Assembly: GCA_963922205.1 (NCBI GenBank)
Contig: CAWUHX010000020.1
Coordinates: 1,674,001-1,738,000, forward strand
Reading direction: 5' to 3'
DNA: 64,000 bases
Source of the DNA: Romanomermis culicivorax
Taxonomy: Eukaryota > Nematoda > Enoplea > Mermithida > Mermithidae
The notes under the pieces were generated by a model that had not been told where the DNA came from, did no database searches, and saw nothing but the letters and a program-made list of their open reading frames with translations. Below, piece after piece: positions 3,015 to 33,216 of the stretch. The number at the start of each line of letters is the position of its first letter. Within the stretch, counting starts at the first letter, position 1. Position numbers and translations under genes: made by a program.

Positions 3015-4684
3015 ATGACCCACCAAGCTCAGGATCATTTAGGAGAAATCGTGAGAGAAAAGATAAATGAATTATTTTCCAAACATTTTCGTACTCTACG
3101 CACACAATTGAACCAAAATACAGTAAACCCTACCCTAATTGACGATGCAAGAACAGCCAACATTCATAATAATATGGCAAATAATTTCTACACAAAACCT
3201 ACAGTATTCATTGGCGGCATGACCCAACATTTTGGTGAATGGAATGAAGGTTTAGAACAATTCATGGCACTCCAAGGCATGAAAGATTCAGATGTACAGT
3301 TAAAGTTAGCATAATTAGAAATTCATTTGGGAGGAGCCACGTTAGCAAAATTCAAAAATCTAGTCAATTCCGAAAACCCTCCCAACACATACGAGCAGTA
3401 TAAAATTGCATTTCAGGCCTCTTTCCTAAATAATCGAGATAATGAGTTACAACAACAAGTTTTGCGAGAGAGAAAACAAAAACAATCAGAAACAGTCACT
3501 GAATTTTTGTTTGATCCAGAACAACTAGCAACCCTCGCCTACCCCAATTTTAATACGGACACATGAGAAATGATCATAAAACCCCTATTTGTGGAAGGCA
3601 TGCAAAACGAAATCAGGGAAGCAATTAAGTATAGAAGGTTTGCAACCCTAAAAGAAATGTCTGACGAAGCAGCTTACATTGAACAGCAAATCCTTAGAAA
3701 TGAACTAAAATCCAACACCCTTCCATTTATACCCCAAAACCCATACCCATCTTTTCACTAACAAACAATACTGACCAACAGGGCCTTTTGTGTCGATTAG
3801 AACAACAAGTAAAAGACTTACAGTCACAGATCAAACAAAAATCCCAACCCCCACAACAGGGTTACTACAACAGTTTCAGCAACAACAACACTTTTAGCAG
3901 AAATAACGGTTACAGAAACAACAGTAGTCTTAGGCAACCCACATGCTTTCAGTGCCGACAACCCAAACATGTAGCTCGCAATTGTAATTCATTAGGGACC
4001 CGAAAATCATGCCAAATCTGTTTTCATAATAATCGGGTTACGCACGATTGTAAAAGCCGATGCATTCACTGCTCCAAAACAGGACATAGACCTGATAACT
4101 GCATTTCAAAAACTTACTCCTACTTTCAATGTTTTCTATGTAAGCAGAGAGGTCATACAAGCAGGTATTACCCCAACCAACAAAGTCGTAATATCTAAAA
4201 TTGCATTGAGTATAGGCAACCCCAACCCCTAATGAACATCAATGACCCTGCACTTTACTCCACATTTCCCGCCATAACTAACGGCCCCCAGCATAGTTTA
4301 GGGACTATAATGCCAACCACTCATCCCCGTATTCAGGTGGAGTATGTCCTTGACTTGGACATTCCCAATTGGTGCGCGATGTCACCACCCCCAAGGCCAG
4401 AGGCGGAAAAAACTGCAAAACCACCGCCCACCATCCCCCCAACTTATAAAATCCCTGGGAAAACAACATCAACTTCACCCACCACCCTCCAGACACCTTC
4501 CAAAAGCAGCCAAAACCTTTTTTCCCTGCTACATGGCCTCACCCCCAAACCCTACAAATTTCACCCCAGACAAACACTACTGCGGACCCCAACGAGTAAG
4601 CAAATCCAAACCCTGTCCCATAATTCAACTTCTAAAATTTTACAGACTGTTCAGATTGTAAACCGGCCACCCCCTCCGCACTAA
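3015..4684 (+). pseudogene. gag: Gag pseudogene with three zinc-knuckle-like motifs
   Basis: Gag forms the virus-like particle and binds genomic RNA. The start MTHQAQDHLGEIVREKINEL is shared with the element at 12.05 kb, which supports this ATG. The capsid-like part runs to about 3760 with stops at 3312-3314 and 3564-3566 in an otherwise continuous series. A Gln/Asn-rich segment follows, then three Cys-rich motifs at about 3945-4175: CFQCRQPKHVARNC, CIHCSKTGHRPDNC, and a third CFLCKQRGH form whose last Cys is replaced by Tyr. A Pro/Thr-rich linker (4232-4684) separates gag from env. The first two motifs fit C-x2-C-x4-H-x4-C zinc knuckles. The stops make the copy non-functional. Confidence 0.8.
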
Positions 4685-4772
4685 ACCCCAAAACGCCAAC
4701 AACAGGCACACCAAACCCACCAGAGAAAAAATACAGCACCCCGCCGCCTCCAATAAAAAATTATGTTGGTCT

Positions 4773-7448
4773 TTGTTTTGTCTCTTTTTTTGTATAATAA
4801 ACCCCACATCATGTAGCGCCCAATTTCAGCTCTGTGGAACATCATTGAGTGGTCACTCAGTCAGCATACCAAAAATTGTATCATGCATGCCCCCTTCCAC
4901 AGTAGACAAACCAGTACAGACATTCAGAAAAATCTATATCCCCCCCCCCCACCAAACCTCACATAACAGATGCATACAAATGCAGTGTTTGCAAGGGGAA
5001 AATTTGTACTAATACAGGATTTTTTGGCTCAAAAGTTATTGTTTTCAACCAAACTGAAATGGAAAATCTAACCCCCCATGTTTGTAAGGTTATGGTTATA
5101 GACAAGGAACACAATAGTCAAAAAATATACAAAACAAAACCAGGATTTTGGTCAACAAACAACTCCCTAAGCCTAGAATACACATGTTGTTGCACAGACC
5201 ACTGTACGTCTAACTAACCTCATCATGGAGATGGGAAAAATAGCATCTTGGAATGGAAAATCAATGACAGGTACACTAGGTGACCTGGGGTCATGCAAAC
5301 CAACATCAGGCCATTGTGTAACAGCCGACGGATCCATTATTTGGAATGAAACAGCATTTGAAAATTTATGCCCTTTCGAATACAAAAATATGTATCCCAA
5401 AAAACTAACACAAACCCACATGATAATATAAGAGCTACAAGGTGCTTTCTCCATCAAAAATGCACTCTTTTCCAACCCCAAATTCCCCGAAATCCAAGAC
5501 AGTATCCTAACTGAACAAGGCAGTTTTGTACAGTTAGACAAAAGAACCCCACATTGTAAGGCCTTTTTAACCCAACAAATCAGCAAAACCCATACTACAC
5601 TCTACGATTTTGACGATTTTGAACCCATTAATGCAAAACTAAACTATCTAGCAGATAAAATCCAAGAATTGGAGATCCAAAATTTCAAAAACCTCTGGAA
5701 TTTACTACGCAAACAGGCACAACATCATCTTGACTTAGTATGGCAAATTTTGCGCCTTGATGCAACCCTTGGGGCGCATGCATTCCTACAACTAACCAAC
5801 ATAATAGCAGAATTCACAGGAGATGCCCTGGCCCTGTAAGCAGGTGAACGCGTCAAAAGTATTTTACAACCATAAAATCAACTGAACGTGCTACAAACTC
5901 TTACTTATTCTCATGGGAACCGACCTCATGTTTTCAAATCCAGGAGGAAACGATTCGACCCCTTTCTCCCAAACTGTCGGCTACCACCACTTGCATGTAG
6001 CCCTCTACAAACAGAATAATACATGGGTCAGCGAAACAGGATCCCCGCATGTCACTAATCTGCCTATAGAAGTCGTATGGAACCAAAACTTCTCCCTTTT
6101 TCATTTCAAAACACCAGCAATTTTCCATGATCAACTTGCAACAATATCAACAAACTTACTCTTTTTAAAGCAATACATTTACAAAACTCACACCCTTGAA
6201 AACATCATTAAAAAACTCGTCAATTATACTACCCAAATGTCCCTCAACTTGGATACAGTCTACAATATGATCTCAGGCAGTGGTCAAGCAATCGGCAATA
6301 CCCTCTCCGGCACTGGTCAAGGCATAGAACATGTAATAACAGGCACTACTCAAAGCCTCACAGAGGGAATAAATAATTTACTCAAGAGACCTTTGCAAAT
6401 CATTATCAATTTGGCCGTTATCACTAGAGCACGGATTCTTAAGTGCAAAAAAAGTCCAAATTAAGTGCCTAATTAAGTGCAAAAAAAGGGTAAATTAAGT
6501 GCACAGTTAAGTGCAAAAAAACCAATTTTACACTAATTTTTGGCCTTAATAAATTGCAATAAGACATTTTAATGGCAGCAAACTGTCAAGTTTAGTTGAA
6601 AAGAAACTTATTAAACATAACAATATTTGTCATTTCAATATTTTCAAATGTTAAGCTTTGACGGCGATCAGACAATATTAATTTATATTGAGAAAACAAA
6701 CGCTCTACGTCTACGTCATGAACAACATTTTAAATTTAAATTCCTGATTGGAGTCAGAAACAAACCATTGAAGATCAGGATTTCGGCCAAGACTGCTTGT
6801 ATGTTTTTTGCAGGCAAATCCATTCAAAAATCAGATGCATCACTGAAAATTTTCCACCATTGATCTTTCATTAAACCCTATTTTTCAAGTTTTTAACTAT
6901 GTTTCTTCAAGTTTTTAACTAAAAACGTTTTTAACTTTTAAAAATTTAAAAATAGTTAAAAAGTTTTCAACTTAAAAAAAGGTTTTTAACTTTAAAAAAA
7001 CTAAAACTAGTTAAAAAGTTGAAAATAGTTAAAAAGTTTTTACTTTTTAACTATTTTTAACCATGTTTTTTCAAGTTTTTAATTAAAAACTATGTATTTA
7101 GGTGCTACTTTTACAAAAATTTTAAATTAAGTGCAATTAAGTGCAAGACCCCCAAATTAAGTGCAATTAAGTGCTGTTAATTAGCATTATTTTGCGTCAG
7201 ACACCATGGATAGTTGCATTTCATGGGAAGTATATTTCATCAAAACAAAAGATTAAGTGCAGCACTTAAAAATCTGTGCTCTAGTTATCACTGTTGTCAT
7301 TGCAGGCCTCTTTTACTCTTTTCTCGTTGTTCGAAAATATTTCCCTTCCCCAAAGCATCATGTTACTAATGAACATGCGTACGAAATACCTTCACACAAC
7401 AGGTGTTTACATGAGACCATTCCCCCTCCTTCCACCACGCTCTCTTAG
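4773..7448 (+). pseudogene. env: Envelope glycoprotein pseudogene, split by a hAT insertion
   Basis: This begins with a hydrophobic signal-like segment (MFCLFFCIINP...) and then a Cys-rich ectodomain whose first residues (AQFQLCG, SGHS) match those of env in the giant element (AQYQFCG, SGHP). Further matching pieces lie at 5225-5431 and 5913-6424: a CxxTxGxC-type segment, a DP-LGA-AFL motif, a FHDQLA motif and a Gly-rich heptad-like stretch before the membrane anchor. The anchor is interrupted by the transposon at 6425-7283 and continues in the same frame after one copy of the 8-bp target duplication. In-frame stops near 5012, 5210, 5431 and 5838 had already disabled it or accumulated in parallel. 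In an active relative this protein would sit on membranes and mediate fusion. Confidence 0.8.
6425..7283. mobile_element. Non-autonomous hAT-type transposon (MITE-like) inserted in env
   Basis: The insert begins TAGAGCACGGATTCTTAAGT and ends with the imperfect reverse complement (about two mismatches in 22 bases). It is flanked by a perfect 8-bp duplication, GTTATCAC, at 6417-6424 and 7284-7291. Eight-base duplications and termini of the form YAGNG are hallmarks of the hAT superfamily. Subterminal TTAAGTGC motifs repeat near both ends (for example 6433, 6461, 6474 and 7134-7172), as expected for transposase-binding sites. The interior is AT-rich with repeats of an AGTTAAAAAGTT-type motif and encodes no transposase. 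Excising it with one target copy restores the env frame across the junction. Confidence 0.9.
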
Positions 7449-10400
7449 AATTAGCTAATTGTCGCAGGGCCCAAGCTCAGCAGAAATACGTCCTTGTTGA
7501 TATCAATACCCTGAGAACTCCTGCAATTGAACTTATAAATCAAATCCACCAATCTGGGTCAAATAGGTCACTCCAAAATGTACCTGAGAATTATACCCCT
7601 CACATTCTGATCACACTCAATGGCAAACTATTCACAAAAGGCATTATTGACACTGGTGCCATGTACTCCCTCATTGATTTAGGAATCGCTGATATCCTGC
7701 AGCTAGACATGAAACCCCCGCTAGTTCAAGCCAAAGCAGCCAACAACCTTCCCATCCACTTGGTAGGAAGAACTTTTGTTACAGTAACCACCCAAACTAT
7801 CCAGGAAACCATAATGGTACATGTCCAAAAAGACTGCACAGCAGATGTCCTTCTTGGAAAAAATTTCCTCAGTCAACTCTCAGAATACACCATCAATAAT
7901 CAGAAGTCTCAGGTCAAATTTAGTGATGTTATACTACCTTGCAATGGCCTGGAATACAGCCCCTTTCAACGCCTGGTGGAACCTACCTGGATGAGAAACT
8001 AGAATTACCACCTCATGCTGTAACCAAATTCACTGTCCCCTTGCCCAAATCATACCTACACATTAACCAACTTGAATTTACCCCAAAACCCAAACAGAAT
8101 GCCAAAGTTCATTTCACTGCTTGCATATCCGAAAACCAAAACAGCCACATACAAATCTCTGTCTCCCCAAACCTATTACCCTGGCACATGCATTGCTGCC
8201 ATCTCAGGCTATATTCCAAAACAAAATTCTCCCACCAAACTAACTCCCTCTATTGCCAAACCAGCCAAACCCTTTTGATACATTTACATGGTTAGAAGAA
8301 AACGTCAATTTAACCTCAAGTAACCTCACGGAAGCATAGAAAACTCAACTCCTATGCACTCTATCCAAATATCCCACCTTATATGCTAATTCCAAAATGG
8401 ACGTAGGTAGAACCACCCTTGTTTCACATACTATTGACACCAATGGCTCCCAACCCATACGTTGACACCTTTTTCGAACATCACCAAAGGAAAAGCAAAT
8501 CATACAAGCAGAGGTCGAGCAACTTGCAGCAACAGGTGTCATTAGTCAAAGCAATTCCCCATGGTGTACCAACACAGTTTTAATCCCCAAAAAAGATAGT
8601 GGACATCATTTATGCATTGACTTTAGAGGTCTAAATAAAGTAACCAAAAAACATACCTATCCCTTGCCCCGCATAGACGAAACTCTAGACACCCTGCGCG
8701 AAATGAAATATTATACATACCTCGACCAGTCAAATGCATACTATTCTATTCCAATTGCAGAAGCTGACAGAGAAAAAACAGCCTTTAATTGCTCAGCCGG
8801 GCAGTATCAGTTTAATTATCTTCCATTTGGCCTCACAAATGCCCCTGCCACATTCCAAAGATTAATGGATGTTATCCTTTCGGGATTGCAATGGAACACA
8901 TGCCTTGTCTATCTCGATGATGTCTTAGTCTTTGCCCAAATGTTAGAACATTTAGACAACATCTCACTCATTTCTCCAAAGCAGGACTCTAACTCAACAT
9001 ACAAAAATGCTAATTTTGCCAGCCCCAAGTCCAATATCTAGGTCATGTCATTTCTCAGCAGGGCATTTCACCTGACCCAAACAAAGTAAAGTCCATTTAT
9101 GACATACCTACGCCCCAAAGCTCCATGAAGTTAAGTCATTCCTCGGCTTACCCTCTTATTATCGCAGATTTATCCTAAATTGCTCCCAAATTTCCAGCCC
9201 ACTCACAGCGTTACTCAAAAAGAATTTGGAATTTTCATGGGGCCTGAACAACAGCATGCATTCACTAAATTCAAAGAGTTGCTAATCCATGCCCCAATCC
9301 TGCAACATCCAGATTTTACAAAACCATTCATTTTGCAAACTGATGCATCAAAACTTGGTATTGGCTCAATTCTAAGCCAACTGGACAGTAAAGGTCATGA
9401 TCGCCCCATCACTTTTGGGAGTCGCACATTGAAACCCGCAGAATGCAACTACCCAATAACTGAGTTGGAAACCCTTGCCATAGTTGATTTCATCAAGCAT
9501 TTCTGCCCCTATCTTTTTCAACAGCATGTCATTGTCCACACTGACCATACTGCAGTTCAGGCAGTCCTGGAGAAAGAAAACCCCTCTCCTCACATTGCCC
9601 GTTGGGGACTAGCCCCCTCTGGTATTCAACTGGACATCCGATCTGAGAAAGGCATTGCTAACCGCAATGCAGATGCCATCTCTCGTTTTCCTTCGGACAC
9701 AGCAAAACAATCCTTTGATATTGCCCACCTAGAAACTCGCCCTGAAATATCAACCATCAATTCTGTTCTCAAAGCCGAAGCAATTGAGCAGGAGGAACAG
9801 CAGAATTATTTTGCAGAACTCCAACGCACTGATCCAGGAGTCAAAAATATCTTAGCTAAAATTTCCAAAAAACACCCCCTTACAGTGCTCAAATTCACCA
9901 TGCACCACAACATTCTCTTTCATATAATCAACAAGCAGACAAAACTATACATCCCCGAATCACAAATACATGATCTCATCGCATCACATCATGACAGTAA
10001 GTTCACAGGTCATTTTGCTTCCCGAAAGACCCTCCACCCGCTCCAGCAAAAATATTTCTGGCCTCAAATGAACCGTGATATCAAATGATACTGCTAAACC
10101 TGTCGATACAAACGATACTGCTAAACCGGCACAGAATACATGCGAATCTTGTCCTATTCAAATCACACTGATTGGGATACTTATTTACCCTTTGCTGTTT
10201 TTTTGATTAACATTCACAAAAATGATAGCACTTCATACCCCCTTTGAATTGCTTCATGGTAGGCAGGCTAATCTCCCATCTAATGCAGCCCTAAATTTTT
10301 TCCCCACATCCTATATGGTTGATCTTGATGATTATGCCTTTCGTGTCAAATCTCACTTTACTGAAGCCCTCTCAATGGTGCAGACAAATTTGCAAAAAGC

Positions 10401-10692
10401 CCAAAACCACTACACCCTTCAGTATAACAAACATGCTCAGAACATCCATTACAAGGCAAACCATTTAATTCTATATAAAAATCATTCAAGTAAACAAGGG
10501 CTCACTCCCAAATTCCTGCCCCACCAAAATGGGCCCTATACAGTCACACATTTCACATACCCTAATGTTACACTCAAACACCCCCATAAGAATACCACTT
10601 TTACAGTACACATAAACGGGACGACCCCCTTTTATCCCCGAGAAGCAACTACCAAAATGGCCCTGACCCCTTCACGCCCTCGAACCCCTTGA
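7449..10692 (+). pseudogene. pol: Pol pseudogene: protease, RT, RNase H, partial integrase
   Basis: The retropepsin motif DTGAMYSL is at 7649-7672 and its partner LLGKNFL follows at about 7852. Reverse transcriptase spans about 8340-9060 with YLDDVLVF at 8910-8933. RNase H follows (about 9320-9690; QTDAS, TELETLA, TDHTA). The integrase zinc-binding region starts at about 9960 (HHDSKFTGHF) but stops at 10088 before its Cys pair. The catalytic core is deleted, and the sequence resumes near 10150 with the downstream part (FELLHGR, then GPYTVT at about 10530, a GPY/F-type module). Stops and frame changes near 8002, 8296, 8464 and 9041 add to the damage. Only one protease domain is present, unlike in the giant element. 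Confidence 0.88.
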
Positions 10693-10723
10693 ATGAGGAC
10701 CTTCAACGTCAGAAAGAGGGAAA

Positions 10724-11905: not shown

Positions 11906-12052
11906 CCCCCCCCCCACCGTAGAGTGATAAGTGATTCGTAAGCATCAAAACTGGAAAAAGCAGTTAATGAAACATTGAGTGACACATTCCTATGAATCGA
12001 ATGTGAAGCAAAAAGTGTAATTTTGATGCACCCACCCAAACACAAATTGAAA

Positions 12053-16943: not shown

Positions 16944-18411
16944 TGTCACATTTTACGCCATGTCACGTGTATGACATGTTGATCTTGGGAGAACTGAGGA
17001 GGTTTGGGTATCTCATCAGGTAATACCGTGTTTTAGACGTCACATTGATGGTGAACCATATCAGATTGACCCTATTACAGTGAGTAATAGGCTGTGACTC
17101 CTGATGGATACTGGCATTTTCCCCAGGCTTCCCAAGTTGGCGTTGGGGCCTAACCTGGCAATTGGTGGCTATAGAGAGGTCTATAGTTGGTTCTCCTGGG
17201 ATGTCCTTGGGGTCTTGCTGTAGGGTAATGGACAACGCTGCCAGGCTAGGTGCGACAATCCCCGAGTCCTACTCAGTGAGAGTGGGGACAGGGTCACCCG
17301 TAAAATGACCTAAATTATGGGACCCGATTATGAACCAGACAGCCCCTTTAGCCCGAACCTGAGAGGTGGAGGCCCTACTGATCTGTGGAAACCTTGGGAA
17401 ACCGACTTAGGAAGGATTTCCCAACAAATAACCCACAAATAACAACAATCCCCTGAGAAGACTCACCTAGTCCTGTTTCTCAAGCGATTACGGCGCAGCG
17501 GGCGGCAAGTCCCTGGATGCTTTCGGTCTTCTGGCACTGGGAGCGGGGGATACGATCCTCAAACGTCCTAGGCGACGAGCGGCGGCGAGCGGCGGCGAGC
17601 GGGAGGGAGCGGGAGCGAGCGGGAGCGAGCGGGAGGCGAAACTCCAACGTTTAATTCACGAACCGGGGCGGTCGGACACCTGGCACTGATGGGCAGCGGG
17701 GTACTGTAGGCGGTGAGCGGCGGACGCAGTAAGAAATGCAAGGGTATGCAAATTTATTTAAGATAATAGGCGGCGGACGCAGTCGAGTATAAAAATATGC
17801 AAATTAGGAAGGGCGGCGGACGCGAAGTTACAACAACCGAATCGGAGCTTGGTGAACCCAAGAATGAGCGAAAAAACTAAAGAAACATGTCCTTTTAAGG
17901 ACATGTTTGGCTACAGCTGCAGCTTGGGCGGAGTTTCTCGGCGCTCAAGCTAACTTCTGCAGCTAGACGCGATGCAGAAGATGCCTATGAGCACATAGAC
18001 ATTTTTTCATTCACATGCGTTTAGCACTGAGGCGGGCTGCAGTGCCTATGCTAAGCATATGAACGTCTTTAGCTACAACTTCTTAGCTAGTCGTTTTGCG
18101 TAACAAAAACGACGCTAATTTTTGATGATAAGAGGTGCGTGAGCGCACCAAAAATAGCCATGTGCTCGTGGAGCACGACTGGCGGAAGTTTTTAGCTAAA
18201 GGGCCTACTGTAGCCCACGTTTGTAAAGAAATAAAAATACAACAAAACGAAACATAGAAATGCATTAAAAAATATAAAAACGAACGCAAAATGCATGGGT
18301 AAAAATGAAATAAACAAAAGCATGGTCGAGTAATAAACAAAACATGAAAAATAACAAAATGTCGGCATGATCGGAATCACGTGACGTTGGAGAATTGAGC
18401 GGCACATGACA
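16944..18411 (-). repeat. 3' LTR of the giant element
   Basis: This is the left copy on the plus strand. It contains a GC-rich GAGCG-type minisatellite (about 17575-17635) with one more 10-bp unit than the other LTR. An imperfect palindrome, ACATGTCCTTTTAAGGACATGT, covers 17884-17905. Confidence 0.95.
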
Positions 18412-18929: not shown

Positions 18930-21900
18930 TTACGGGTCGGGGACCTCTGCATCAAGATGTGGGTCAATCAGATTCGGTGTAAAGTCCCGGCTTATTGAGG
19001 GATACAATAAGGGTGCCGAATCTGTTGCCTGTGAAGTGGGAGGTGTATCCTCTGCTTCACTCGGTTGTTCAGGGGACACGTAAAGTCGAAGCTGGTTGAC
19101 ATGTACAGTGTCTTCCTGATCCATCTCGAGACGAAGTGTGACATTGGGATATGCCACACTCGTTACAAGGTAAGGTCCATCGTAGATGGGCAGCAATTTA
19201 GGAGTGAGTCCACGTTTGCTGGAGGTGCGCAGTTTGAGCACCTGATCCCCTACTTTGTACGAGACATCATGTGCCCTCCGGTCGTACGACCGTGCATAGG
19301 CTTCCTGTGCTTTCTCAATCCGACTCTGGATTAAGGTTAACACATTCGTGAAATGACGTTTGACCTCCATATCATATGAGGAAACATTAATGATATGGGC
19401 CGGAGGGTTGAATGAGAGCGCGGCATCAACAGGGAGCATGGGTGTGCGACCGTACATGAGTTCAAAGGGCGAGTACCCTGTTGACTCATTCATGCTGATA
19501 TTGACGGCAAACACAGCGTATGGTAGGTGTTCATCCCAATCAGTATGTCCTTGATGAACATACATACGTAGCCGTGTGGCTAGCGTCTGATTAGCTCTTT
19601 CCACTTCGCCGTTGGTCATCGGGTGATAGGCGGTAGAGTGGATTTTCTTCGTTGCGCAGATCGCAGTGATCTCAGTCATCAGTTTTGATGTGAAATCAGT
19701 GCCACGATCTGACTGAAGAATCTGCGGTGCCCCGTGCCGGCAGACAATTTGCGTTACAAACAGCCGGGCTATGGTGTGCGCAGTGATGTCCGGAGTAGCA
19801 AAAGCTTCGACCCATTTCGTAAAGTAGTCGATAAAGACTACGATGAAACGGTTGCCAGCTTCGCTAGTGGTCATTGGTCCCATGCAGTCGACACCTACCC
19901 GGTGAAACGGTCCCGTGATGGTGATAGGTTTCAGGGTCGCAGTGGTTTTCTGTCGAGCGGGCTTATTCCGTTGGCAAAGATCACACCGCTGACAGAAGGA
20001 CTTGACATCCCGACTGAGGGAGGGCCAGTGGTATCTGCGAGCAATGAGCCGCGCAGTACGTTTAGCACCGAAGTGTCCAGCTAAGATGTCATCGTGATGA
20101 GCCCGGATAATAGTAGTAACCATGGATCTGGGTATGACGATCTTATTGGACTCGCCTGTCCATTTCTGAAGAACGTTATCCAACAGATGGTAGCCTCTCA
20201 CATCATTCTGGTCGCCCAGAGGCTTAAGAGAGCAAATGATGTCGGCTAACTCCGGATCCTCCAGCTGAGCAGCGAAAAGGTCGGGGTGCTGCGCACCGAC
20301 GGATATCTCGGCATAAGACTCTGATCGTACCGGGCGCTCCGCGCCAACAGTGATCGGTGCTGAATTACTTGAACGCGCCAGGTGCTGCACACCATCGGTC
20401 AAGGTCCTGGATCGCGCCAGGTGCTGCGCACCATCGGTGATCATCATAACGTGCCCCTCAGGTCTGTAGAGGGGAGTATCATCAATACTCTGACCGGTGA
20501 GGGAGTTAGGATCCGGCAGGCGTGATAATGCGTCCGCATTACCATTAGACTGACCTTTTCGCGGCCGAATTGTCAGTTTGAATTCGGCGAGCGCGAGTCC
20601 CCACCGAGCGATCTGAGCAGAGGGGTTAGGCTTCTCCAACACTGCTTTGACCGCGGTATGGTCAGTCTGGACGACCACCTCGTGCTGGAAGAGGTATGGT
20701 CGAAAGTGCTTGACGAAATGGACAACAGCGAGAGTCTCCAGTTCTGTAATGGAGTAGTTTTTCTCGGCCGCTGTTAACCCTCGGCTGGCGTACGCGACAG
20801 GATGGTCGTATCCATTTTCGTCTAACTGGCTAAGAACCGCTCCTATCCCCGAAATACTCGCATCAGTTTGAAGGATAAAGGATTTCGAAAAGTCCGGATG
20901 GCGCAGGATAGGAGGGTTGGTCAGCAGGCGGCGGAGTTCATCGAACGCCTCCTGCTGAGGTTTTGACCACTGGAAAGTAGTTTCCTTCCGTAAGAGCTTG
21001 GTGAGGGGCTCGCTGAGCCGGGCACAACCAGGGATGAAACGCCTGTAGTAAGACACGAGGCCTAGGAAGGACTTGATGTCTTTGGCGTTTTGTGGAATGG
21101 GTAGGTTTTGGACGGCGGCCAGCTTGGCTTGGTCAGGTTCTAGGCCGCTCTGTGAGATGCGATAGCCTAGGTATTCTACCTCTGAGTGCGAGAATTTGCA
21201 CTTGCTCAGTCTGAGCTTCATTCCACCCCGGCGAAGACGGGCGAACACATCTGCCAGGCGCTCAAGCATTTGGGTGTGAGAGTTCCCGAACACCAAAATG
21301 TCGTCGAGATAAGTCAGAACCGTGCGCCATTGGATTCCAGTAAGGAGGAGGTCCATAAGGCGTTGAAATGTCCCTGGCGCGTTGCATAAACCGAAAGGCA
21401 AGTAATTGAATTCGTAAAGTCCAATAGGCGTATTAAAAGCCGTCTTTTCCTTATCGGCCTCGGCAATCGGGATTGACCAATAAGCGTTAGCCTGGTCAAG
21501 GGTGGTGAAATACTTCATACCCTTGAGTGTGTCGAGGATGTCATCTATCCGCGGGAGAGGGTAGACATCCTTTTTCGTGACCTCGTTAAGACCACGAAAG
21601 TCAACACACATACGGTGAGAACCGTTTTTCTTGCGCACCAGGACGGTATTAGTAGCCCACGGAGACGTGCTGGGCCGAATAATACCTTTCTTTTGGAGTG
21701 CCTTGACCTCTTGCATGATGAGATCCTTCTCCTTAGGTGAGGACCGGTAAGGAAAACGGCGGACTGGGCGGGCATCGCCCGTGCTGATTTCGTGCTGGAC
21801 GAGATCAGTGGAACCTGTGTCCTTTTCATCAAGAGCATAAAGGTCGGTGTATGCAACCAGTAGATCGAGTAAGGCTGCCCGGTCCCGAGGGGAGATGTCC

Positions 21901-24900
21901 GGTGAGATTACAGCATTGGCCTCGACCCACTGACGATCGAGGACGGTGTCTGAGTCGACCGGTGATTCCCGTGAGGGCTCACTATGCATTTGCACATGAC
22001 CGATGGTCGTGTGCGGGTAGAGAACCACGGAATGAGTACTCGGGTTAACTACCTGAAGTGGTATGTGACCGTTGGTCACGGTACTGACGCTTCCAGCAAA
22101 ATATACGTGTCGTTGAGATCCGGTGAGGTGCTTCGGAAAGAAGGCCACCTCAGGCACGTTCGTATAGATTGGTGGGACAGGTACAGTGAATCGTGTCAGG
22201 GAGCGAGGCTCCAGAATGACCAAGTCCTTCAGGGGCAAGGCGCCGCGGGCAGAAGGTGGGCTTTGGATGAGACCGTCACAGGGGATTCTACTTTCCTTGA
22301 ACTGGAGGAAGGATTTCTCCCAGTTCAAGCTGACACAATTGAACCGGCCAAGGAAGTTGGTTCCGAGGACCAGTTCAGCTGAACAGTTCTCCTGTATTTG
22401 GACCTGAATCCGTTCAGAGACATCAGCCACTGTAACTGTGATGTAGGCTGCTCCTAGCAGTGGGATCGGGGACCCGTTGGCTGCGATAGGGCGTGCCCTG
22501 GTTGGTGATAGTGACAAGTTGGGCAGCTGGGCCGCTAACTTGTGGTCCAGGAGTGAGAAAACAGCTCCTGTGTCGACCAGTGCCTTCGCTTCTACCCAGT
22601 TGTTGAGGAGAACTTTGATATGGGGTGTCCGAATATCATTTGGGTAAAAAGCCGTGACCACATGACCGGAATCAGGTGTGGTGGCACCACTAGCGTGTTT
22701 GGTCTTACCGGACCGCTTTGGAATCGGCAGTCCCGTACGACGTAGGAGGCCTACTAGAGCGTATCCGACGGAGGGTTCCGGGTCATTCAGAAGGGTGGAC
22801 TCATCCTGCACTGTTAGCACGTGGTCTGAGTGATCCTTCGGACTCTGAGTAGCTCCTAGTGATTCAACCTCGGTGTCCGATAGCGGAGGCGCGTTTGGCA
22901 CGGGTGATGTCGGAGCATCTGAATCACTTGGCTGACGGTATCGGCCCTTCTCTAGTGTAACTGGAGAGGTTCCAGGCGGAGGTCGAGGGCAACCTGACCC
23001 GTGCAAGGTCGACAGATGACGACTTGCCCGTCTAGAAGAGGCCCGGGATCCCCTAGTTGACCCACGTGATGAGGCAACTGAGGAGGCCCGTGAGTGTGGC
23101 CGAGAGATGGACGAAGCCCTGGACCGCGATCGTGATCCCGACCTGTGTGAGTTTCGCGAGAGAGCACGGGTGTTCTCCCACCAGGGGTCGATCTGGTCAA
23201 TCTCCGGCGTGGTCAGCAGGAGGGGTAATTCTACCGCGTCTAGCCGACAAACATTACGTTGGTAGTCAAACATAATGTTCTTGAACTGTTCTAAGAAGTC
23301 CAGTCCGAGTATGAGGTCAACAGGTGCCCAGAAGGGAGACGTAGTCTTGCACACGTGGAGATGTACATCGATCCGTGTGTTCGGCTGGCGGTTTCCGGGC
23401 AACATGATTTCATATGGTCCCGAAAGGATGGTATGAACGGCTTTACCATTGATGCTCATCAATGGGTTAAAGTCGTGATGTTGCTGGAACGCCATGACCG
23501 CCTTCGGACTTTCTTTAGCCAAGGCCTTATGAAGACGTTGGCTAATGATAGTGCGTGGGCAACCCGTGTCAAGGAAAGCAGGAGTTTCCTTGGTGTCCAG
23601 CAGCACGACGAAGCACGGTGTGATTCGGTCAAGCTGGGAGGGCACATCGTTTTGCACGTAGTGAAAACCGATCCAGCGTTGGACTTTGCGGTAAAGACCC
23701 AACGGGGAGAAACGGCTAACAAACCTGACCTGTTTGCTCCGCAGACGGTAGCTGAGATAATAAGATACACCAAGATAGGCAAGGTATCCGGCACCGATCA
23801 GCACTGTCAGGGTAAGTAGGATGTTAAAGATCAACTGGACCGGCCCGCTCAGGACAGCATGCAAGCCCTGGGCGAGGGTGTGTTGTTGACCCGTAATAAC
23901 ATGGTTTGCTGCCAAACCGACACCTTCCAGAGAGGCCTTGATGTCGGTTCCTACCCCTGCAAAGGCCTGGTAGATGGCGTCTGGTTGCAGGGATAGACCA
24001 GCGGTAAAGTTTACCAGCCGGTTGAGTACCGCTTCAATTTGCTCAGTCTTGTAAACGTACTGTTTAAAGAAGGCAAAGTTTGAAGGGGTCATCGCCAACT
24101 GGTCATGGAAGAGCGCCGGTGCCTCAAAGTGAGTGATGTTGAAGCGCTGCTTCCAGAAGAGTTCCAGTGGGATGTGGCTCACATGGACCGCGCCAGACTC
24201 AGTAAACCAGCCCGAGCGATTTCGGAAAATCCCTGTAAAGTGGTGATGACACGGCACAATTGGGCTAGATTTAATGAGATCCGGACCACCGGGGGTGGCA
24301 AAGTAGATGGTGCCGCCAACCTGTACAGGTAAGTACTTGTAGCAAACGTTCCCCACCCGGTACGAGTGGTAAACGTAGGTGGCGTTGACCTTCTGACACG
24401 GCCATATTGTCAGCGCATCGCCTGTGAATTCCGCCGTCAGGTCATTCCTCTGGAGGAATGCCCGGGCACCCAGGGTAGGGTCGAAGCGAAGCAACTGCCA
24501 AGTCAGATCAAGATAGCGTTGAGCGTGAGAGCAGAGCTCAAGCCACGTGGACCGGAAACCGTTAATTTCCGACTCCTTGATCTGCTGAGCCAGATAGTTC
24601 AGTTTGGCATTGACAGGATCGGGACGGCTGTCCGTTGCCACTCTGAACAAGTTCTGGGTCAAATTGTATCTCCCGTGGATGCGAAGGAGAAGACCCTGAT
24701 CCGTCCGGACTGTGGTGGAACGTAGTTCTGGGCACAGTTGGAAGACACGGGAGTTTCCCGGGATCTTGAGGGCAACCTGTAGATCATCGATGATGACGTG
24801 GTTCCCTGACATGGACGCAGTGTAATTTCCCTTGGGGTGATAATGACACCGCGCCGTGAAGTTTTGTGCAGGCCAGACAATGACCCCGTCTAGAGTAGTG

Positions 24901-27900
24901 CACTGACCTGCAGTGGGACTGCATCCACCTACATCGCCTAAGGTGCTTAGGGCCGTAGTGCCGTCCCACGAAGCGACTTGTCCCTCCTCGATGAAGAGGT
25001 TAGTCACTGTCTTGCAGACGTCGCTACAGCACCATTCGTACATCACTTCCAATGTTTGGTTTGTGCTATAAAAACCAGGGCGAATGCCGACAAGTTTTTG
25101 TGGACCAAACATCTTAGTGCGATGTGCTAGCGTGCATGCCGCAGGCGCTAAGTGCTGAGTGGTAATGACGTCTGCAGTGATGCCCCTAGAGCCGAAGAAA
25201 CCAGTGTTGGTGCAGACTTTGCGGGAGCGCAATGTGCATTTCCATGCTGTGGCTGTAATCGGGTCCGAGCTAGGGACATACACCGTAACATTCATGCGCC
25301 GCGGGCTCCATGAAGATTGCGGTGGTTTACACTCTACACGCTGGGGTAACTCAAGTGGGTGTCCGCTTCTTGAGAGACCGCAAAATTGATACTGAGCCGC
25401 CGGTGCTGACAAACTCACCCCTAGAAACAGTGATGCTACCAAGGTCAATTTTATTGTCAAAAACAACTGTACAAACGTAATTTGTAAGTGTTCACTCAAT
25501 TTCGCAAATCTGGCCTGAGGGGCAGTGTCAGATTTCTTCTTCGTCGCTGTCGGACGAGATTGGTTCCTGGTCGGGGAAATCGAGGACCAATTCACCGCTG
25601 GGGAGGATTTCCCGAAGGGTACCGACTTTCGGCGACCGTGGGTTGACTGCCGTTGGGAACGGTGATGTTTCAACAATGCTGACATCCTCATTAACTGGAC
25701 GTAAGGTCTCGTCGACGGCCATGGGTTCGACGACGGGCGACTTGGTCGCGGCGGTCGGAGATGTCGTTTGGGCTGGTGCCGGCGATTTGACTTGGGCTGT
25801 TGCCGACGATGTATGTTGGGCTGTTGCCGGCGGTGTAGGATCATTTGCGGGTTCCTTGGCCGGGGGCGAGGAAGCAGTAATGTCCATTTTCGTTGGCGAT
25901 GTCGCGGCAACAGGTGGTGCTGCTGCCGGTGAGGTAGCGGCGGCAGCAGGCAGGAGGATCCGACTAGCCTGTTCGACTGCTCGGCGGACGGCATCGACTG
26001 AAGGCGAGGATGGCTCCCCGTCCAATAAGAACTTCTCGACGGGCGAGATGGTGATAGTCCCATTGGCAATGAACTCGAGTGCCCGGCGGGCGACGTCGGG
26101 TCGTAAGAGGCGCATCGAGACGGGTGCTGCAAGCACGACGTCGGCGGCCGTGAGTGCTTCGACATTTGATGGCTCGTTGAGGAGAGTCCACGGCAAATGC
26201 GGGTATTTCTTGGCCAGGTCGACTGACCAGATGGCCAACATCGCGTCTTGGACGGGCGATGGCGCTGTGAACAAGAAATCGATAGAGTCGTGGACTGAGA
26301 TAGATTTCTGGTTCCTACTCTAGGATCACCTGAAGAAGAAGGTAGTATACCTGACAAATTCATAGGCTCGACCTGGTCGAGGACTTCCGTAGCCGAATCC
26401 GTGGGGATCGAAGGCGGTGGTCCTGGAGGGACGATGCGGGCCGGTGGCGCCGAAGACGTCGTATTCGCGGCTGGAGCTGGCTCGGCAGTCTTAATTTTAG
26501 GAATGCGATACGATGCGAGGATGTTAGCGTGGCCAACAAACTGTGGTGTCCTCGAGGGGTCCAGAGTGACCGGCATCGCATACTTTGGTGGTGGTGGTGG
26601 CAGCGGTATGTCCGATACGTTCATCGGTACGGGTACCTGGGCTGCTTGGACCACTGAAAATCCAGTACTGATTACGCAGACAGGATAACACTGTTGTGAA
26701 GAATCTGTCAGGTGTTCAGCAAGTGCCTCATCATCCAGGTCAAGAGGGTTTGGATGAGGAGGGCCATCGGTAGCCCCAACGGCGTTGTTGCGGCGTATGG
26801 GCTGCCGATAATGGTTTCCTGTCCCGTTGGGAGGGTGATAACCATTTCTTTGATGATACACATTTGTCCCCTGGGAAGAATAACCAGTATCTTGGTAGAC
26901 ATTCTCACCCGTGTTTGCGGGATTGCGCTGCGGACAGGCAGTTGATCGGTGCACTCGCACTTGACGACAATGAGGGCATGGCCTATCACATCGGTCCGTG
27001 GGGTGGGCACGTGTACGGCAAAAATAACAGCGACCACCGTTAGCGGCGTTGTTACCGGGAGCGGCACCGGTCGGACGCTGGGCCCGGCAGTCGGCGTCGC
27101 TATGTGTACACAGTCCGTGGAAGGAGCACGTTTGAAGGTGTGCTCCCGACGAGCGTCGCCCGGCGGACTGATTTGGTGTCGACGGCTGTGGAGGCGGCGT
27201 CTGTTGGATTGGCGTGGGTGCACGTTGCTGGGCCGTGAGCTTCGCTACGTGGGCCGTGAGCCTGGCCATTTCCTGTTTCAAGCGGCGAACCTCATCGGCG
27301 GAGGATGACGACGTTGGAGCGTTGCTCTGACGACCGTTTGCGCTTCTGTTAGGCATATCGGGATTATATCCGGCGTGTTTAGGTTCTGAAGAGAAAACGG
27401 CGTTAGATGGAGCAGTGTACCGGATCTCGTCCCGAAAGATTTGGGATTCTGCGTAACAGGCTGCCTTGAGTGTCTCTTCAAGAGTCGTGAACTCCCTAAA
27501 CTTGATACTATCTCGGAGGACCGGCTTCAGTCCCCGCAGAAAGATAGGTTTGATGATAGAATCTCGGACATCCGTCGCGAGATCTGGATACGCTACCCTG
27601 GATAGTCTCTTGAGGTGCTCAAGGTAGACTATCGCGGACTCTGTCGGCTTCTGCAGTCGATCTTGGATCAGCTGCTGATGCAGATCAGAGTCGCGCCCTA
27701 CCGGAAAATCTCTCCGTAGAAAAGCCGTAAACTCTTCGTAGCGGGTAGGTATTGGAGTGCTGCTGCTAAAGTCCCGGTAGGAGGCGAGAGCAGGACCCGT
27801 GAGGCATGACTCCAGAAAAGCGATTTTATACGCATGATCCGTTTCGCTTACACCCTGGAGTGTAAAGAAACGAGTAAGATGCGACATAAAATCGGTAATA

Positions 27901-28070
27901 GACTCACCAAAAGCACCGGAGAAGGTGGGAGGGGCCATAAAGCTGGACACGGGAGGGTGCCTCCGACCATTCATGGCCTCTAACTTTTGGTTGAGGGGTC
28001 CAAGAGCATTCTCAAACGCTGCCTGGACCTTGTTCTCGATCTGTGAAGGGAGATCAGTTTCCGACTTCAT
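18930..28070 (-). CDS. Giant Gag-Env-Protease-Protease-RT-RNaseH-Integrase polyprotein
   Basis: Single open frame of 3,046 residues. Approximate order: capsid-like Gag (1-240); knuckle region (314-378) with [28 protein letters not shown] and [15 protein letters not shown]; Pro-rich linker; Ser/Arg/Pro-rich low-complexity stretch (about 585-845) over a -1 frame ORF; internal signal-like hydrophobic segment (about 862-893); Cys-rich, N-glycosylated ectodomain; membrane anchor (about 1408-1440); retropepsin-like domain 1 (FLDTG about 1498, ILGLDFL about 1585); Arg-Ser linker; retropepsin 2 (LVDTG about 1830, VLGTNFL about 1898); RT with YLDDILVF (about 2253); RNase H (QTDAS about 2396); integrase HHCC (about 2655), D-D-E residues in [14 protein letters not shown] and [14 protein letters not shown] module. 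No catalytic residue I looked for is missing. Env between gag and pol, and two proteases, are unusual. Env expression probably needs splicing or internal processing. Confidence 0.95.
23745..25490 (-). other. env: Envelope glycoprotein domain inside the polyprotein
   Basis: The hydrophobic stretch [20 protein letters not shown] followed by AQYQFCG looks like a signal peptide and cleavage point. The ectodomain, about 520 residues, has many Cys (including WCCSDVC and CPxLR-type sites) and several Asn-x-Ser/Thr sites (NVT, NQT, NFT, NYT, NLT, NAT, NRS, NIT). A Gly/Ala-rich amphipathic stretch precedes the anchor [21 protein letters not shown] short basic tail (YRLRSK) follows, as expected on the cytoplasmic side. 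The pattern DPTLGA...TGDAL...WPC...CY reminds me of glycoproteins of chuvirus/mononega-like viruses and of env-bearing Bel/Pao elements. That resemblance is from memory and unproven. The homologue at 4.8-7.4 kb is a pseudogene. Confidence 0.8.
25528..26319 (-). CDS. Overlapping -1 frame ORF, 263 codons, acidic C-terminus
   Basis: I do not recognise this protein. It is open from just after a TAG (26322-26320) to a stop at 25528. The first Met is at 26274, giving 248 residues from there. The N-terminal ~100 residues look like folded globular sequence with a helical, hydrophobic pattern ([28 protein letters not shown]). The middle is Ala/Pro/Thr-rich, and the end is acidic (SSDSDEEEI). In the same bases the giant frame yields Ser/Arg/Pro-rich low complexity, so the -1 frame looks more like real protein. 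It ends just where the env signal segment begins. It could be reached by -1 frameshifting, splicing or internal initiation. The relative at 3-11.6 kb has only a short linker here. Chance openness in GC-rich DNA cannot be excluded. Confidence 0.5.
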
Positions 28071-29844
28071 GTCCGAGGGTTCGTTTTCCCGTAAGGTGGT
28101 TAGAACAGACGTCCTTGCCCGTGAAGCAATTAAGTCAAATTGAATAGAGAGCAGCTCACTGGTCTGTACAGGCTGGGTACTGAGACGGCAGGAACGACGG
28201 GGTGTCTCTATGGTGTAAAATGAAAGTGAGTACTACTTTTGAATTCGCGGCGAAAGAGCGCGTGAATTCGGAAAACGCGTGCGCGACGGCGTTTTAAGAC
28301 GTAAATTGATTTAGCTTAAGACTAGCGACCACGGAAAGGGAGCTAGAATGGAAGAGGATTAAGATGTAGGATCAGAGTACATCAGGGTGACGCAGAAGGG
28401 GATTTATCTGGTCGCCCGTGATGGACAGAGGCATGGCCTGAGATATGGGGGAATCGATCCCGACCAAAATGTAGGATTGGGGCCTGGACCCGACAATTAG
28501 AATAGATGAAGAGGACAGATGATCAGATGTGAAGGTAGAGAAGAGGCGGTTTTCCTGCCGAAAAATGAGGTGACGGATGAACCCGCTCAGGAGGGATTTT
28601 TCCTGGAGGTTCGACCGCTGTACTAGTTTACAAACCTTGGGGCGAGGCGGACTCGTAGCCGGCAAGATCCTACTCACCAGGAGTAGCGCATAAAGTGGCA
28701 TTAGGTGAAAAGGATGGGGTCAACTGAAAATGAACTTAAGAGGGGGCAATAAATAGGGACAAAACTAATTTACAAACCCAGTTACGCAAAGGGGTCGCGC
28801 AGTTACGCAACGGGCCTCACTCGCCAGGAGCGATTGCGATCTCTGCATAGTGAGACGGACTATACAGGAGGTTCCGTGCTGGACGACATTCGCAAGTAAC
28901 TTACAGCCGTGTCCGAAACGGGAGCCCGCATTCCGAACAGAACGGACACTCTCCAGGAGTATTATACACAGCTGGTGGCCGGGTTTGCCGATCACTGAGA
29001 TGAAGTGAGGTTCGCAGGTCACACAGTAGAAGAGGGAAGGAGCACGGGTACCAAGGGTGCTATTCTGACACACTCAGTCAGTTAAAATGAAATACTCTGG
29101 ATGTTTTGAGGGCGCACCCGAAAGCATCTAAGGGATCACGGGTACAAGGTGTCCCTGATTGAATATGAGTGTAAAGTATGTATCGAGGCGTACTCAATAC
29201 CTTCGCTGAGGCGGACTCAACGGTGCCTATTACTTACAGACTGATAAAGGGTGGACCGCGGAGGCGGACTCTGGGTCAGTGGCGACTCTAGCACGGGCAT
29301 CGTTAAGCCAGTTAACGAAGGCGTTCGAGTGAAAGAAATATGACAGGGGGTCCTATACACTCTAGGCCCAACCGGAGGCTGTGCCGCGGTCCCTTGGGAA
29401 CCACTACGGCGGGGACACTAAAGAAGATCTATGTATGACAGCTCGATGAGATGAAAGAGAATGAGTGAATTTAGATAAGAAATTTACAAGAAGATTGCCG
29501 AACCCTTGCAGACGTCAGACACAGGCAGTACCGACTGCAAATGCCTGCTATCTGCCCGAGTCAGACAACCAACCCAGCTGAGGCCGAGTGTAACTCGTTC
29601 AAACCTGCAGTTAAAGCTTGAAGCAGTCACGTGCTGATCAACAGTGCCGCTACCCGGGCGGACAACCTGATCAGTACGCAGACTAGAAAGCATCTCAGGT
29701 GGTGTATGTATGTGGACTGATGTTTCCCAGGCATCAGCCCCGAGACACACACAAACCCTTGGACAAGAGAGGTAGGTGATAGGACTATGCGCCAGCGACC
29801 ACCTACAACTCAAGTGGAATACTCATAGGACCGACAGTAGCCTG

Positions 29845-30545
29845 GTGCGGACGTCAAAAGGTAGGGGTATGAACCAGCACATGACCTTGGTGCTGACTGC
29901 AGGTGCCTGGGATAAGAGCATTCAAGTACCATGTCGCAGTTGCAGACGCCAGGGGTGCGTGCCTAAGGCCGACAGAACCCCTGCAGTAGCACGTAATGTT
30001 ACCATTGCGGACGTCAGAAATAGGATCATGTAACCTCAATTCCTGCTGCGAGAACATGATACATTGTCATTGCTGACGTCAGCAATAGGGCCCTGAAGCC
30101 AGCTATCGGTATACAGCATCACGTGATGGTGCCGTTGCTGACGTCAAAAGGTGGAACCAAGGGTCTGATACCTTAAGTCAATGACATGAGATGCAGTTGT
30201 TGCAGACGTCAGATGTGGTACCCGTAAGACCTGCACATCTCCGAATAGTGACACGGTGCGTCACCATTGCTGACGTCACAGATGGGGTGCAGAGAACCAG
30301 CCGAACCTGTCGCAACAACGTTGGCTTCACTTGTTGCAGACGTCAGAAGTCATTACTGCTGGAGTGTTAACTTAAACGACAACACGTAATGTCGGTTGCT
30401 GACGTCAGGAGTAGAACCAGGAGGGCTACCCACCCCTTAAAGCAACAGCAAGTGAAGCGGCTGTTGCAGACGTCAGTGGTTGCATCCGTGGGGTTGAACC
30501 ACACAACAACAACAACCCGTAACGTTGTTGTTGCTGACGTCAAAG
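29845..30545. promoter_or_regulatory. Tandem array of TGACGTCA/CAGACGTCA sites, ~66-bp period
   Basis: GACGTCA occurs at 29850, 30010, 30075, 30140, 30205, 30272, 30339, 30401, 30469 and 30536, with a variant at 29945. Spacing is 62-68 bp from 30010 onward. Five copies are the full palindrome TGACGTCA (30074, 30139, 30271, 30400, 30535), the consensus cAMP-response element bound by CREB/ATF bZIP factors. From 30139 on, T-type and A-type copies alternate, suggesting a two-unit higher-order repeat. The flanking unit sequences have diverged much more than the core. A regulatory role is inference. Confidence 0.6.
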
Positions 30546-30681
30546 AGCATGACCCGTAAAGTCTATGGTCTAGATGCAACAACCCGATAATAGAAGAGAA
30601 CAGACCTTACAGTAAGTAGAAATGAAAAGATAGAGGAACTTACGTAAGGGTGTCATACTGTAGCGGTGGCGTCCGAAAAAG

Positions 30682-30722
<41 letters not shown>

Positions 30723-31740
30723 CGACACCGCTCAGCTGACCGAGAAAGGAAAAGGAAAAATAAAATAACCGAAGACGGGGAATACGAGATTTGGACATAC
30801 GCGTGTTAAATGTGTAAACAGTCGGTGTAAAATTTTGTTTTTTTTTTTTTTTTTTTTTTTTTTTCTATTTGGGGCCAGAAAAGTGAGCAATTCCGACAGT
30901 TTCCGCCGACATACAAAAAGACTGTACACAGTTAACAAATCGCAGCCACGTATGACGTCCAGAATCATATGTGGAGGGTGTACGGTATCATGGGGTCACG
31001 GACCACCAACAGTCAGGAGAGGCCGTAAACCCCTACAGCTGTGATACCAGTACCCGCGTATGGGTATACTGTAGTTACAGTACGGGAATGGGCACAGGCG
31101 TACTGCAATGGCACCCACCCGGAGGGCTACAGTATACCACCCAGGATTAGAGAAGGGGGGAATAGGGGAAAAAGAGAACAGATAAGGTAGTTTACAGCAC
31201 AGACTAAGTTTGTAGAATGTACAGAATGAATCAGAGGAGAAATACAGAATACTCGATATATATCTCAACTCTGGGACAAATAACACGACTCTGGGGATCA
31301 ATAACTCGACTCAGAGGGGAATTTATTACTCATAGGGGGTTATACACACGCATGAGATAATTATTTACACATATAGATCACATTTAGATCACTCGTAAGG
31401 GCAAATCCCGTCTTACAGTAATTAAATTTGATGTTCAGGGATAAATTCCCGATCTACAGTAATAACTCTTGGTGGCACGGGAAAAAATTCCGACGTACAG
31501 TAATAATACGGGACGTGAGGTGGGGGTATCCGACCTACAGCAGCGGTAATCCGAAATAAGGGGCATTCCCGACCCATTAGGCAGTAAACCCGAATCTGGG
31601 GGTTCTCCGACTTATTGGATTGCTAGTGCCCAATTTTAAGGGGGCTTGTCCGACTTAAAATGGGAATTGACCCGACCTGGGGGTAGATCCGACCCAAGGG
31701 TAAAGTTTTACACTTAAGGGCGAGTGCCAGACTTAAGGTC

Positions 31741-31758
31741 GATTTTCCAGCCTCGCCA
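31741..31758 (-). other. Putative tRNA primer-binding site
   Basis: Directly after the 5' LTR end on the minus strand the sequence reads TGGCGAGGCTGGAAAATC. It begins with TGG, complementary to a tRNA CCA end, as expected for a primer-binding site. I cannot name the tRNA. Confidence 0.65.
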
Positions 31759-33216
31759 TGTCACATTTTACGCCATGTCACGTGTATGACATGTTGATCT
31801 TGGGAGAACTGAGGAGGTTTGGGTATCTCATCAGGTAATACCGTGTTTTAGACGTCACATTGATGGTGAACCATATCAGATTGACCCTATTACAGTGAGT
31901 AATAGGCTGTGACTCCTGATGGATACTGGCATTTTCCCCAGGCTTCCCAAGTTGGCGTTGGGGCCTAACCTGGCAATTGGTGGCTATAGAGAGGTCTATA
32001 GTTGGTTCTCCTGGGATGTCCTTGGGGTCTTGCTGTAGGGTAATGGACAACGCTGCCAGGCTAGGTGCGACAATCCCCGAGTCCTACTCAGTGAGAGTGG
32101 GGACAGGGTCACCCGTAAAATGACCTAAATTATGGGACCCGATTATGAACCAGACAGCCCCTTTAGCCCGAACCTGAGAGGTGGAGGCCCTACTGATCTG
32201 TGGAAACCTTGGGAAACCGACTTAGGAAGGATTTCCCAACAAATAACCCACAAATAACAACAATCCCCTGAGAAGACTCACCTAGTCCTGTTTCTCAAGC
32301 GATTACGGCGCAGCGGGCAGCAAGTCCCTGGATGCTTTCGGTCTTCTGGCACTGGGAGCAGGGGATACGATCCTCAAACGTCCTAGGCGACGAGCGGCGG
32401 CGAGCGGGAGGGAGCGGGAGCGAGCGGGAGCGAGCGGGAGGCGAAACTCCAACGTTTAATTCACGAACCGGGGCGGTTGGACACCTGGCACTGATGGGCA
32501 GCGGGGTACTGTAAGCGGTGAGCGGCGGACGCAGTAAGAAATGCAAGGGTATGCAAATTTATTTAAGATAATAGGCGGCGGACGCAGTCGAGTATAAAAA
32601 TATGCAAATTAGGAAGGGCGGCGGACGCGAAGTTACAACAACCGAATCGGAGCTTGGTGAACCCAAGAATGAGCGAAAAAACTAAAGAAACATGTCCTTT
32701 TAAGGACATGTTTGGCTACAGCTGCAGCTTGGGCGGAGTTTCTCGGCGCTCAAGCTAACTTCTGCAGCTAGACGCGATGCAGAAGATGCCTATGAGCACA
32801 TAGACATTTTTTCATTCACATGCGTTTAGCACTGAGGCCGGCTGCAGTGCCTATGCTAAGCATATGAACGTCTTTAGCTACAACTTCTTAGCTAGTCGTT
32901 TTGCGTAACAAAAACGACGCTAATTTTTGATGATAAGAGGTGCGTGAGCGCACCAAAAATAGCCATGTGCTCGTGGAGCACGACTGGCGGAAGTTTTTAG
33001 CTAAAGGGCCTACTGTAGCCCGCGTTTGTAAAGAAATAAAAATACAACAAAACGAAACATAGAAATGCATTAAAAAATATAAAAACGAACGCAAAATGCA
33101 TGGGTAAAAATGAAATAAACAAAAGCATGGTCGAGTAATAAACAAAACATGAAAAATAACAAAATGTCGGCATGATCGGAATCACGTGACGTTGGAGAAT
33201 TGAGCGGCACGTGACA
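31759..33216 (-). repeat. 5' LTR of the giant element
   Basis: This is the right copy on the plus strand. It ends TGTCAC/GTGACA as a perfect inverted 6-mer, where the other LTR has one change (ATGACA). Length agreement with 16944-18411, apart from the 10-bp repeat unit, confirms both boundaries. Confidence 0.95.

Follow-up and report, generated by a model that had tools for sequence, protein, structure and literature searches.

Introduction

Errantiviruses, the envelope-carrying gypsy elements, combine a Ty3-like Gag and Pol with a captured fusogen and have their env gene 3' of pol; the Ty3-like group also includes Cer1 of C. elegans. Here we describe an intact Ty3-like long terminal repeat (LTR) element from the nematode Romanomermis culicivorax, which likewise has a Ty3-like Gag and Pol and, as judged by profile, a captured fusogen, and in which Env is instead found between the zinc knuckles of Gag and the protease, within one frame of 3,046 codons. 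The element occupies positions 16944–33216, minus strand, of the window, by which we mean the whole analyzed stretch of 64,000 nucleotides (nt) of contig CAWUHX010000020.1 (GenBank assembly GCA_963922205.1, positions 1,674,001 to 1,738,000). Coordinates below are those of the window.

Type III glycoproteins have been named in gypsy and BEL elements (PMC13172572). Where the accounts consulted state a position, env follows pol (e.g. PMC7642597), so that Env can be produced apart from Gag-Pol. Roo, Tas, and Cer-7 have an envelope-like protein downstream of the polyprotein, and the glycoprotein of Anakin came from chuviruses (PMC7642597). Anakin and other env-bearing Bel/Pao elements thus resemble the window element in holding a captured viral glycoprotein within an LTR element; however, Anakin, Roo, Tas, and Cer-7 are Bel/Pao elements, whereas ours is Ty3. 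PMC10084718 reports no clear case in which Gypsy elements captured a glycoprotein of Jingchuvirales, in MDG1 elements a fusogen-like sORF2 precedes gag and sometimes follows pol (PMC11952523), and Troyka elements are described without an envelope (PMC12440569). In Cer1 no stop separates gag from pol, and the spliced product CERV starts in the gag frame and continues with a later exon in another frame (PMC10309623). Cer1 differs from the window element in that no envelope is described between its gag and pol and in that CERV acts in RNA export as a nuclear protein and does not serve as a Gag tail. Our literature search for the gag-env-pol order found no account of it; possible mentions of such a placement were followed in part, and the survey of envelope-carrying gypsy elements by Chary and Hayashi (2025) was outside its coverage. 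The novelty of the order is therefore not certain.

Results

Domain order of the long frame

The open reading frame at 18930–28070 (minus strand) starts with ATG and encodes 3046 residues with no internal stop. Pfam matches along its pieces come in the order Ty3_capsid (E 1.8e-7; 31.2 bits against a cut-off of 29.1), Monjiviricetes_fusion (E 1.4e-14), gag-asp_protease (E 5e-8), RVT_1, RNase H, Integrase_H2C2, and rve, the integrase being the last domain that Pfam recovered from the frame. The parts are thus capsid and zinc knuckles, signal sequence, a glycoprotein of putative class III, membrane anchor, protease (PR), reverse transcriptase (RT), RNase H (RH), and integrase (IN). In a hydropathy scan (19-residue mean, cut 1.6) the only strongly hydrophobic segments of the whole frame were residues 864–891 and 1403–1436, which flank the glycoprotein on either side. 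An earlier sequence-only reading of the window had proposed that a glycoprotein with signal, ectodomain, and anchor lies between Gag and the protease in this frame; the placement of env is confirmed by the open reading frame and the Pfam order, and the glycoprotein is supported by the profile matches and the two hydrophobic segments.

The element is a young, complete copy. Its LTRs, about 1.46 kb each, differ by substitution at 7 of the 1458 positions aligned and have a further 10 gap columns; its ends are TG...CA, and GTCT is present at both flanks as a short target-site duplication. A putative primer-binding-like site, read from the sequence and starting with TGG, lies directly 3' of the 5' LTR. 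Features of the Ty3/gypsy type (Metaviridae) are the LTRs, the short target-site duplication, the Ty3-type capsid, and the PR-RT-RH-IN order.

The Env glycoprotein

Residues 862–1440, taken for a glycoprotein in the sequence-only reading, do match fusion-glycoprotein profiles. The Env segment scored 54.3 bits against PF24664 (cut-off 27), and its match to BDV_G was below cut-off. Two database relatives, P0006 and P0067, matched herpesvirus Glycoprotein_B, also below cut-off (E 1.3e-4 and 0.0039). When a profile of four Env sequences was compared with PDB sequences, 19 of the 21 rows at E ≤5 were glycoprotein B; the best row was ORF8 (E 0.005), one row was a ribosomal protein, and most E-values exceeded 0.1. 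A single Env gave five weak PDB rows, four of bacterial adhesins and one of glycoprotein B. In an alignment of eight Env sequences, 15 of the 16 cysteines of the window Env are conserved in all rows covering the site, and the remaining one is conserved in 7 of 8. No RX[KR]R site was found in residues 885–1445. We read this Env as a class III fusogen, similar to glycoprotein B and to those of Monjiviricetes. Chuviruses belong to the same broad Monjiviricetes group as the profile that it matched.

The order is inherited

Translated searches (tblastn) with pieces of the intact frame recovered a decayed, diverged copy in the window, with 33–61% amino acid identity and several frame changes. Its parts on the plus strand are gag (3189–3710), env (4770–6413), PR (7598–7963), RT (8029–9124), and RH/IN (9127–10647), which bears out the proposal that a diverged element at 3.0–11.6 kb has the same order.

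Database proteins with the gag-env-pol order came from the ena, jgi, and lgn sources. Searching proteins with Env recovered P0006, and a search with a longer Env-Pol piece found P0007 and P0008. The search with Pol gave 7282 proteins at E ≤1e-30 among 8000 scored. Among 120 listed Pol matches, at least five (P0007, P0026, P0040, P0067, and P0087) have PF24664 in the same protein; the domain was sought within the listed proteins themselves. Comparison of Env by blastp with 122 collected proteins gave seven matches, namely these five together with P0006 and P0008. IMG/VR scans gave no relative.

Four relatives, P0008, P0040, P0067, and P0087, are single proteins of 2490–2604 residues that run from gag to integrase in the order of the window element, in which signals of a capsid or of zinc knuckles precede Env, and PR, RT, RH, and IN follow it. 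Of their capsid matches in Pfam, only Retrotrans_gag in P0087 was above cut-off; zf-CCHC was above cut-off in P0040. The window Gag itself matches P0040 (4e-32), P0067 (3e-10), P0087 (5e-8), and P0008 (3e-4). Strongly hydrophobic segments in the four proteins stand only just before and just after Env, P0040 having two adjacent ones before it. Env identity across the lineage is 31–42%.

The RT tree had 54 rows, nine chosen and 45 taken at random from 95 others. In it the window groups with P0007, P0019, P0020, P0026, P0040, P0067, and P0087 in a clade of eight members (98/93), and a FastTree of 104 RT rows agrees (0.97). The Env tree pairs P0067 with P0087 and P0007 with P0040, the same pairs as in the RT tree. 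P0008 groups with the family by Env and not by RT; forcing it together gave a p-AU of 0.036, with long-branch warnings, and this protein may represent a separate lineage or a recombinant, or its placement may be wrong. The sequence of P0019 begins just before an anchor-like segment. P0020 is a close Pol relative with no detectable Env, as if its ectodomain had been lost. Between Gag and PR of P0020, in residues 500–590, are two borderline hydrophobic segments (1.63 and 1.61), 42 residues apart.

It had been suggested that the layout is inherited, and that relatives might prove to have env after pol in every case. The decayed copy and the four single-protein relatives agree with the former, and relatives from other collections have env before pol in the same protein. 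From these sequence comparisons we consider the gag-env-pol layout to be inherited, unusual, and real.

The decayed copy has a further and shorter relative at 12052–14839 (plus strand), with a gag piece at 12218–12748 and, at 14164–14839, repeats matching 10677–11901. The observed/expected CpG ratio is 0.43–0.60 over the decayed copies (4001–16000) and 0.74–1.28 from 16 kb onwards, and the older copies seem to be CpG-depleted.

A change in the frame of the coding signal between Gag and Env

According to the sequence-only reading, one coding frame serves all parts. Frame 0 is indeed open throughout, but the codon signal leaves it between Gag and Env. Frame 0 and the -1 frame were compared in 240-codon windows by a codon score, for which the remainder of the frame served as training set. 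For residues 601–840 the score was -89.4 bits, i.e. the signal is in the -1 frame, whereas all 38 other 240-codon windows favored frame 0, by +4.6 to +95.5 bits; residues 561–600 were neutral. A stop at 25530–25528, just ahead of the Env signal sequence, closes the -1 frame. Because the coding signal from the knuckles to Env is that of the -1 frame, Gag probably ends in a frame other than frame 0. Under codon shuffling an overlap with both frames open is rare, at 16 and 11 of 5000.

Removal of a candidate intron of 65 or 86 nt, at the neutral stretch of residues 561–600, would bring Gag into the -1 frame. The candidate donors are 26329 (65 nt), which matches at 7 of 9 positions, and 26350 (86 nt), which matches at 6 of 9, with the acceptor before 26264. 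Of 13 possible pairs, the 65-nt one scores best, ahead of the 86-nt pair.

A programmed -1 frameshift was considered and rejected, as no canonical -1 slippery heptamer was found in the stretch where the shift would be needed. Frame 0 has a single X XXY YYZ heptamer across gag and the overlap, at 26751, and stops in the -1 frame follow it. The -1-frame tail had no Pfam family and gave weak, mixed PDB rows (best E 0.01).

Two retropepsin-like domains

Beside the Env anchor is a second retropepsin-like domain, PR1, which by Pfam alone is below cut-off. Against the protease profile of the family, hhalign gave it a probability of 96 (E 3.8e-9), as compared with 0.1–0.3 for three control pieces. Outside Env, each of eight relatives (three of them partial) has a single D[ST]G[ASC] motif, and no second retropepsin was seen in them. 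The distance from the anchor to the protease match is 18–97 residues in P0019, P0026, P0007, P0040, P0067, and P0087, and about 377 here. PR1 was not found in the decayed copy at 6380–7620, where each frame has 22–27 stops and there is no D[STA]G motif.

Discussion

The order of the parts, their domain identities, the inheritance of the order, and the frame switch of the coding signal can be seen from the sequences. For expression we offer a reasoned proposal, with partial support, in which we infer translation as one chain, topology in the endoplasmic reticulum (ER), cleavage, and splicing. A topological analogue is the flavivirus polyprotein, in which a cytosolic capsid, an internal signal, a membrane glycoprotein, and cytosolic enzymes are in one chain; these are unrelated RNA viruses, and no homology is claimed. 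In the element, Gag would remain cytosolic and the internal signal sequence would direct the ectodomain into the ER. The anchor would bring the chain back to the cytosol, where the proteases, RT, and integrase would stay, and signal peptidase together with the element's proteases would cut the chain. From spliced RNA, with the 65- or 86-nt intron removed, Gag would enter the -1 frame, acquire its own tail, and stop before Env, while RNA that retains the intron would be read in frame 0 through Env and Pol as Gag-Env-Pol.

We assign a probability of about 45% to this reading, namely a gag-env-pro-pol lineage of Ty3-like elements, with Env threaded through the ER as part of the long frame and Gag made by splicing in this copy. 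A more detailed version is tentative and in our estimate somewhat unlikely: the lineage would make an ER-threaded Gag-Env-Pol, retention or removal of the intron would here choose the product, both phases of the overlap would be kept open for that purpose, and of the two retropepsins one would be held to the membrane at the anchor. Several points weigh against splicing and against the one-chain proposal as a whole. The splice pair is moderate, both donors having failed the strong-donor list and acceptor 26264 the acceptor filter; 53 of 2000 Markov shuffles gave a pair with an equal score, and this chance rate lowers the odds of splicing. A single open frame of 253 codons was found in 0.95% of 2000 sequences of the first dinucleotide model, so that the overlap may be less unusual than the shuffling of codons implies. 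The -1-frame tail had no homologue in the five relatives tried (E <5), and their gag-env stretch resembles one ordinary frame; the switch may therefore be peculiar to this element. The database proteins are products of gene callers, and the one-chain translation, splicing, topology, and cleavage proposed above are all read from sequence.

Could Env, or Env-Pol, come instead from a spliced mRNA of its own, with an upstream exon giving the start codon and the open Gag-Env frame 0 as a by-product? There is no frame-0 ATG in or near the signal sequence, so that a separate Env would need a start from outside, and the coding signal departs from frame 0 at that very place. A strong donor is present at 32281 in the 5' LTR, AG sites lie near the Env start at 25466 and 25420, and retroviral Env comes from spliced mRNA (PMC10309623). 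However, both AG sites fall within the signal sequence and would shorten it, several relatives have gag and env in one open protein, and frame 0 is open for more than 250 codons, which is rare under codon shuffles. An own mRNA is possible, although we would not expect it. More doubtful still is a reading in which this copy has, at the -1-frame segment, either a recent insertion or a frameshifted stretch, frame 0 being a decaying or tolerated linker, with no splicing switch and all products cleaved from one Gag-Env-Pol chain. Such an origin would suit a tail without homologues, relatives that look like single-frame polyproteins, and a distance from knuckle to signal of about 480 residues here versus about 220–340 in the four relatives. 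The near-identical LTRs, the intact remainder of the frame, and the clean -1-frame coding signal over 240 codons, ending just before Env, argue against it. That misassembly or a single recombination put env between gag and pol is hardly credible: the window has two copies only, both within the one stretch, but the same order in proteins from all three sources contradicts this explanation, which we reject, and the Env and RT trees have congruent pairs.

A lineage that has kept a fusogen between capsid and protease across deep divergence must produce its particle, membrane, and enzyme proteins from a single locus otherwise than do elements with env after pol. How the amounts and the membrane topology are set, and whether intron retention can replace frameshifting, are testable questions. 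Such elements would escape any survey that seeks env only 3' of pol.

Features of the window

Table 1. Parts of the intact element, and the decayed copy, in window coordinates
Feature	Position	Strand	Basis or remark
5' LTR	31759..33216	-	Direct-repeat pair; contains donor-like TAG|GTGAGT at 32281
Long leader	28071..31758	-	Primer-binding-like site at start, 38 ATGs, phased TGACGTC[A/T]GCA array
Gag, frame 0 (aa 1-573)	26351..28070	-	Capsid aa 57-205, zinc knuckles about aa 348-379; Pfam, codon signal
Candidate intron, 86 nt (65 nt with better-scoring donor 26329)	26265..26350	-	GT-AG; removal would move Gag into the -1 frame
Overlap: -1-frame Gag tail with stop at 25530-25528; frame 0 also open	25528..26264	-	Codon signal
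Internal signal sequence (aa 864-891, frame 0)	25398..25481	-	Hydropathy
Env ectodomain (aa 885-1402), putative class III fusion glycoprotein type	23865..25418	-	16 Cys, 9 sequons
Env membrane anchor (aa 1403-1436)	23763..23864	-	Hydropathy
PR1, second retropepsin-like domain beside Env anchor (aa about 1490-1618)	23217..23603	-	hhalign; weak Pfam, PDB
Ser/Arg-rich linker (aa 1621-1800)	22671..23210	-	Translation
PR2, the family's usual protease (aa 1815-1945)	22236..22628	-	Pfam, relatives
Reverse transcriptase core (aa 2145-2305)	21156..21638	-	RVT_1
RNase H (aa 2368-2497)	20580..20969	-	Pfam
Integrase zinc domain and core (aa 2646-2817)	19620..20135	-	Pfam
3' LTR	16944..18411	-	Direct-repeat pair, 98.8%
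Decayed, diverged copy, order gag-env-PR-RT-RH-IN	3189..10647	+	tblastn of pieces

The array in the leader, at 29507–30542 (minus strand), has nine sense-strand TGACGTC[A/T]GCA sites, or 11 by a looser pattern, the first ones being spaced 62–68 bp apart; the motif occurs only 11 times in the whole window on both strands. The insulator array of gypsy is in a comparable position. Together with the donor at 32281, a strong acceptor at 28342 (minus strand) could delimit a possible leader intron; although the leader has 38 ATGs, none lies between 28342 and the start of gag. An Rfam scan over the element gave no match.

Elsewhere in the window, exons of a host gene of the EHD/RME-1 type are found at 52703–60907 (minus strand) and mark the host as an animal. 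Fragments of other retroelements, one matching gag weakly and two matching reverse transcriptase, are present at 328–837 (minus strand), 40200–40499 (plus strand), and 62901–63467 (plus strand).
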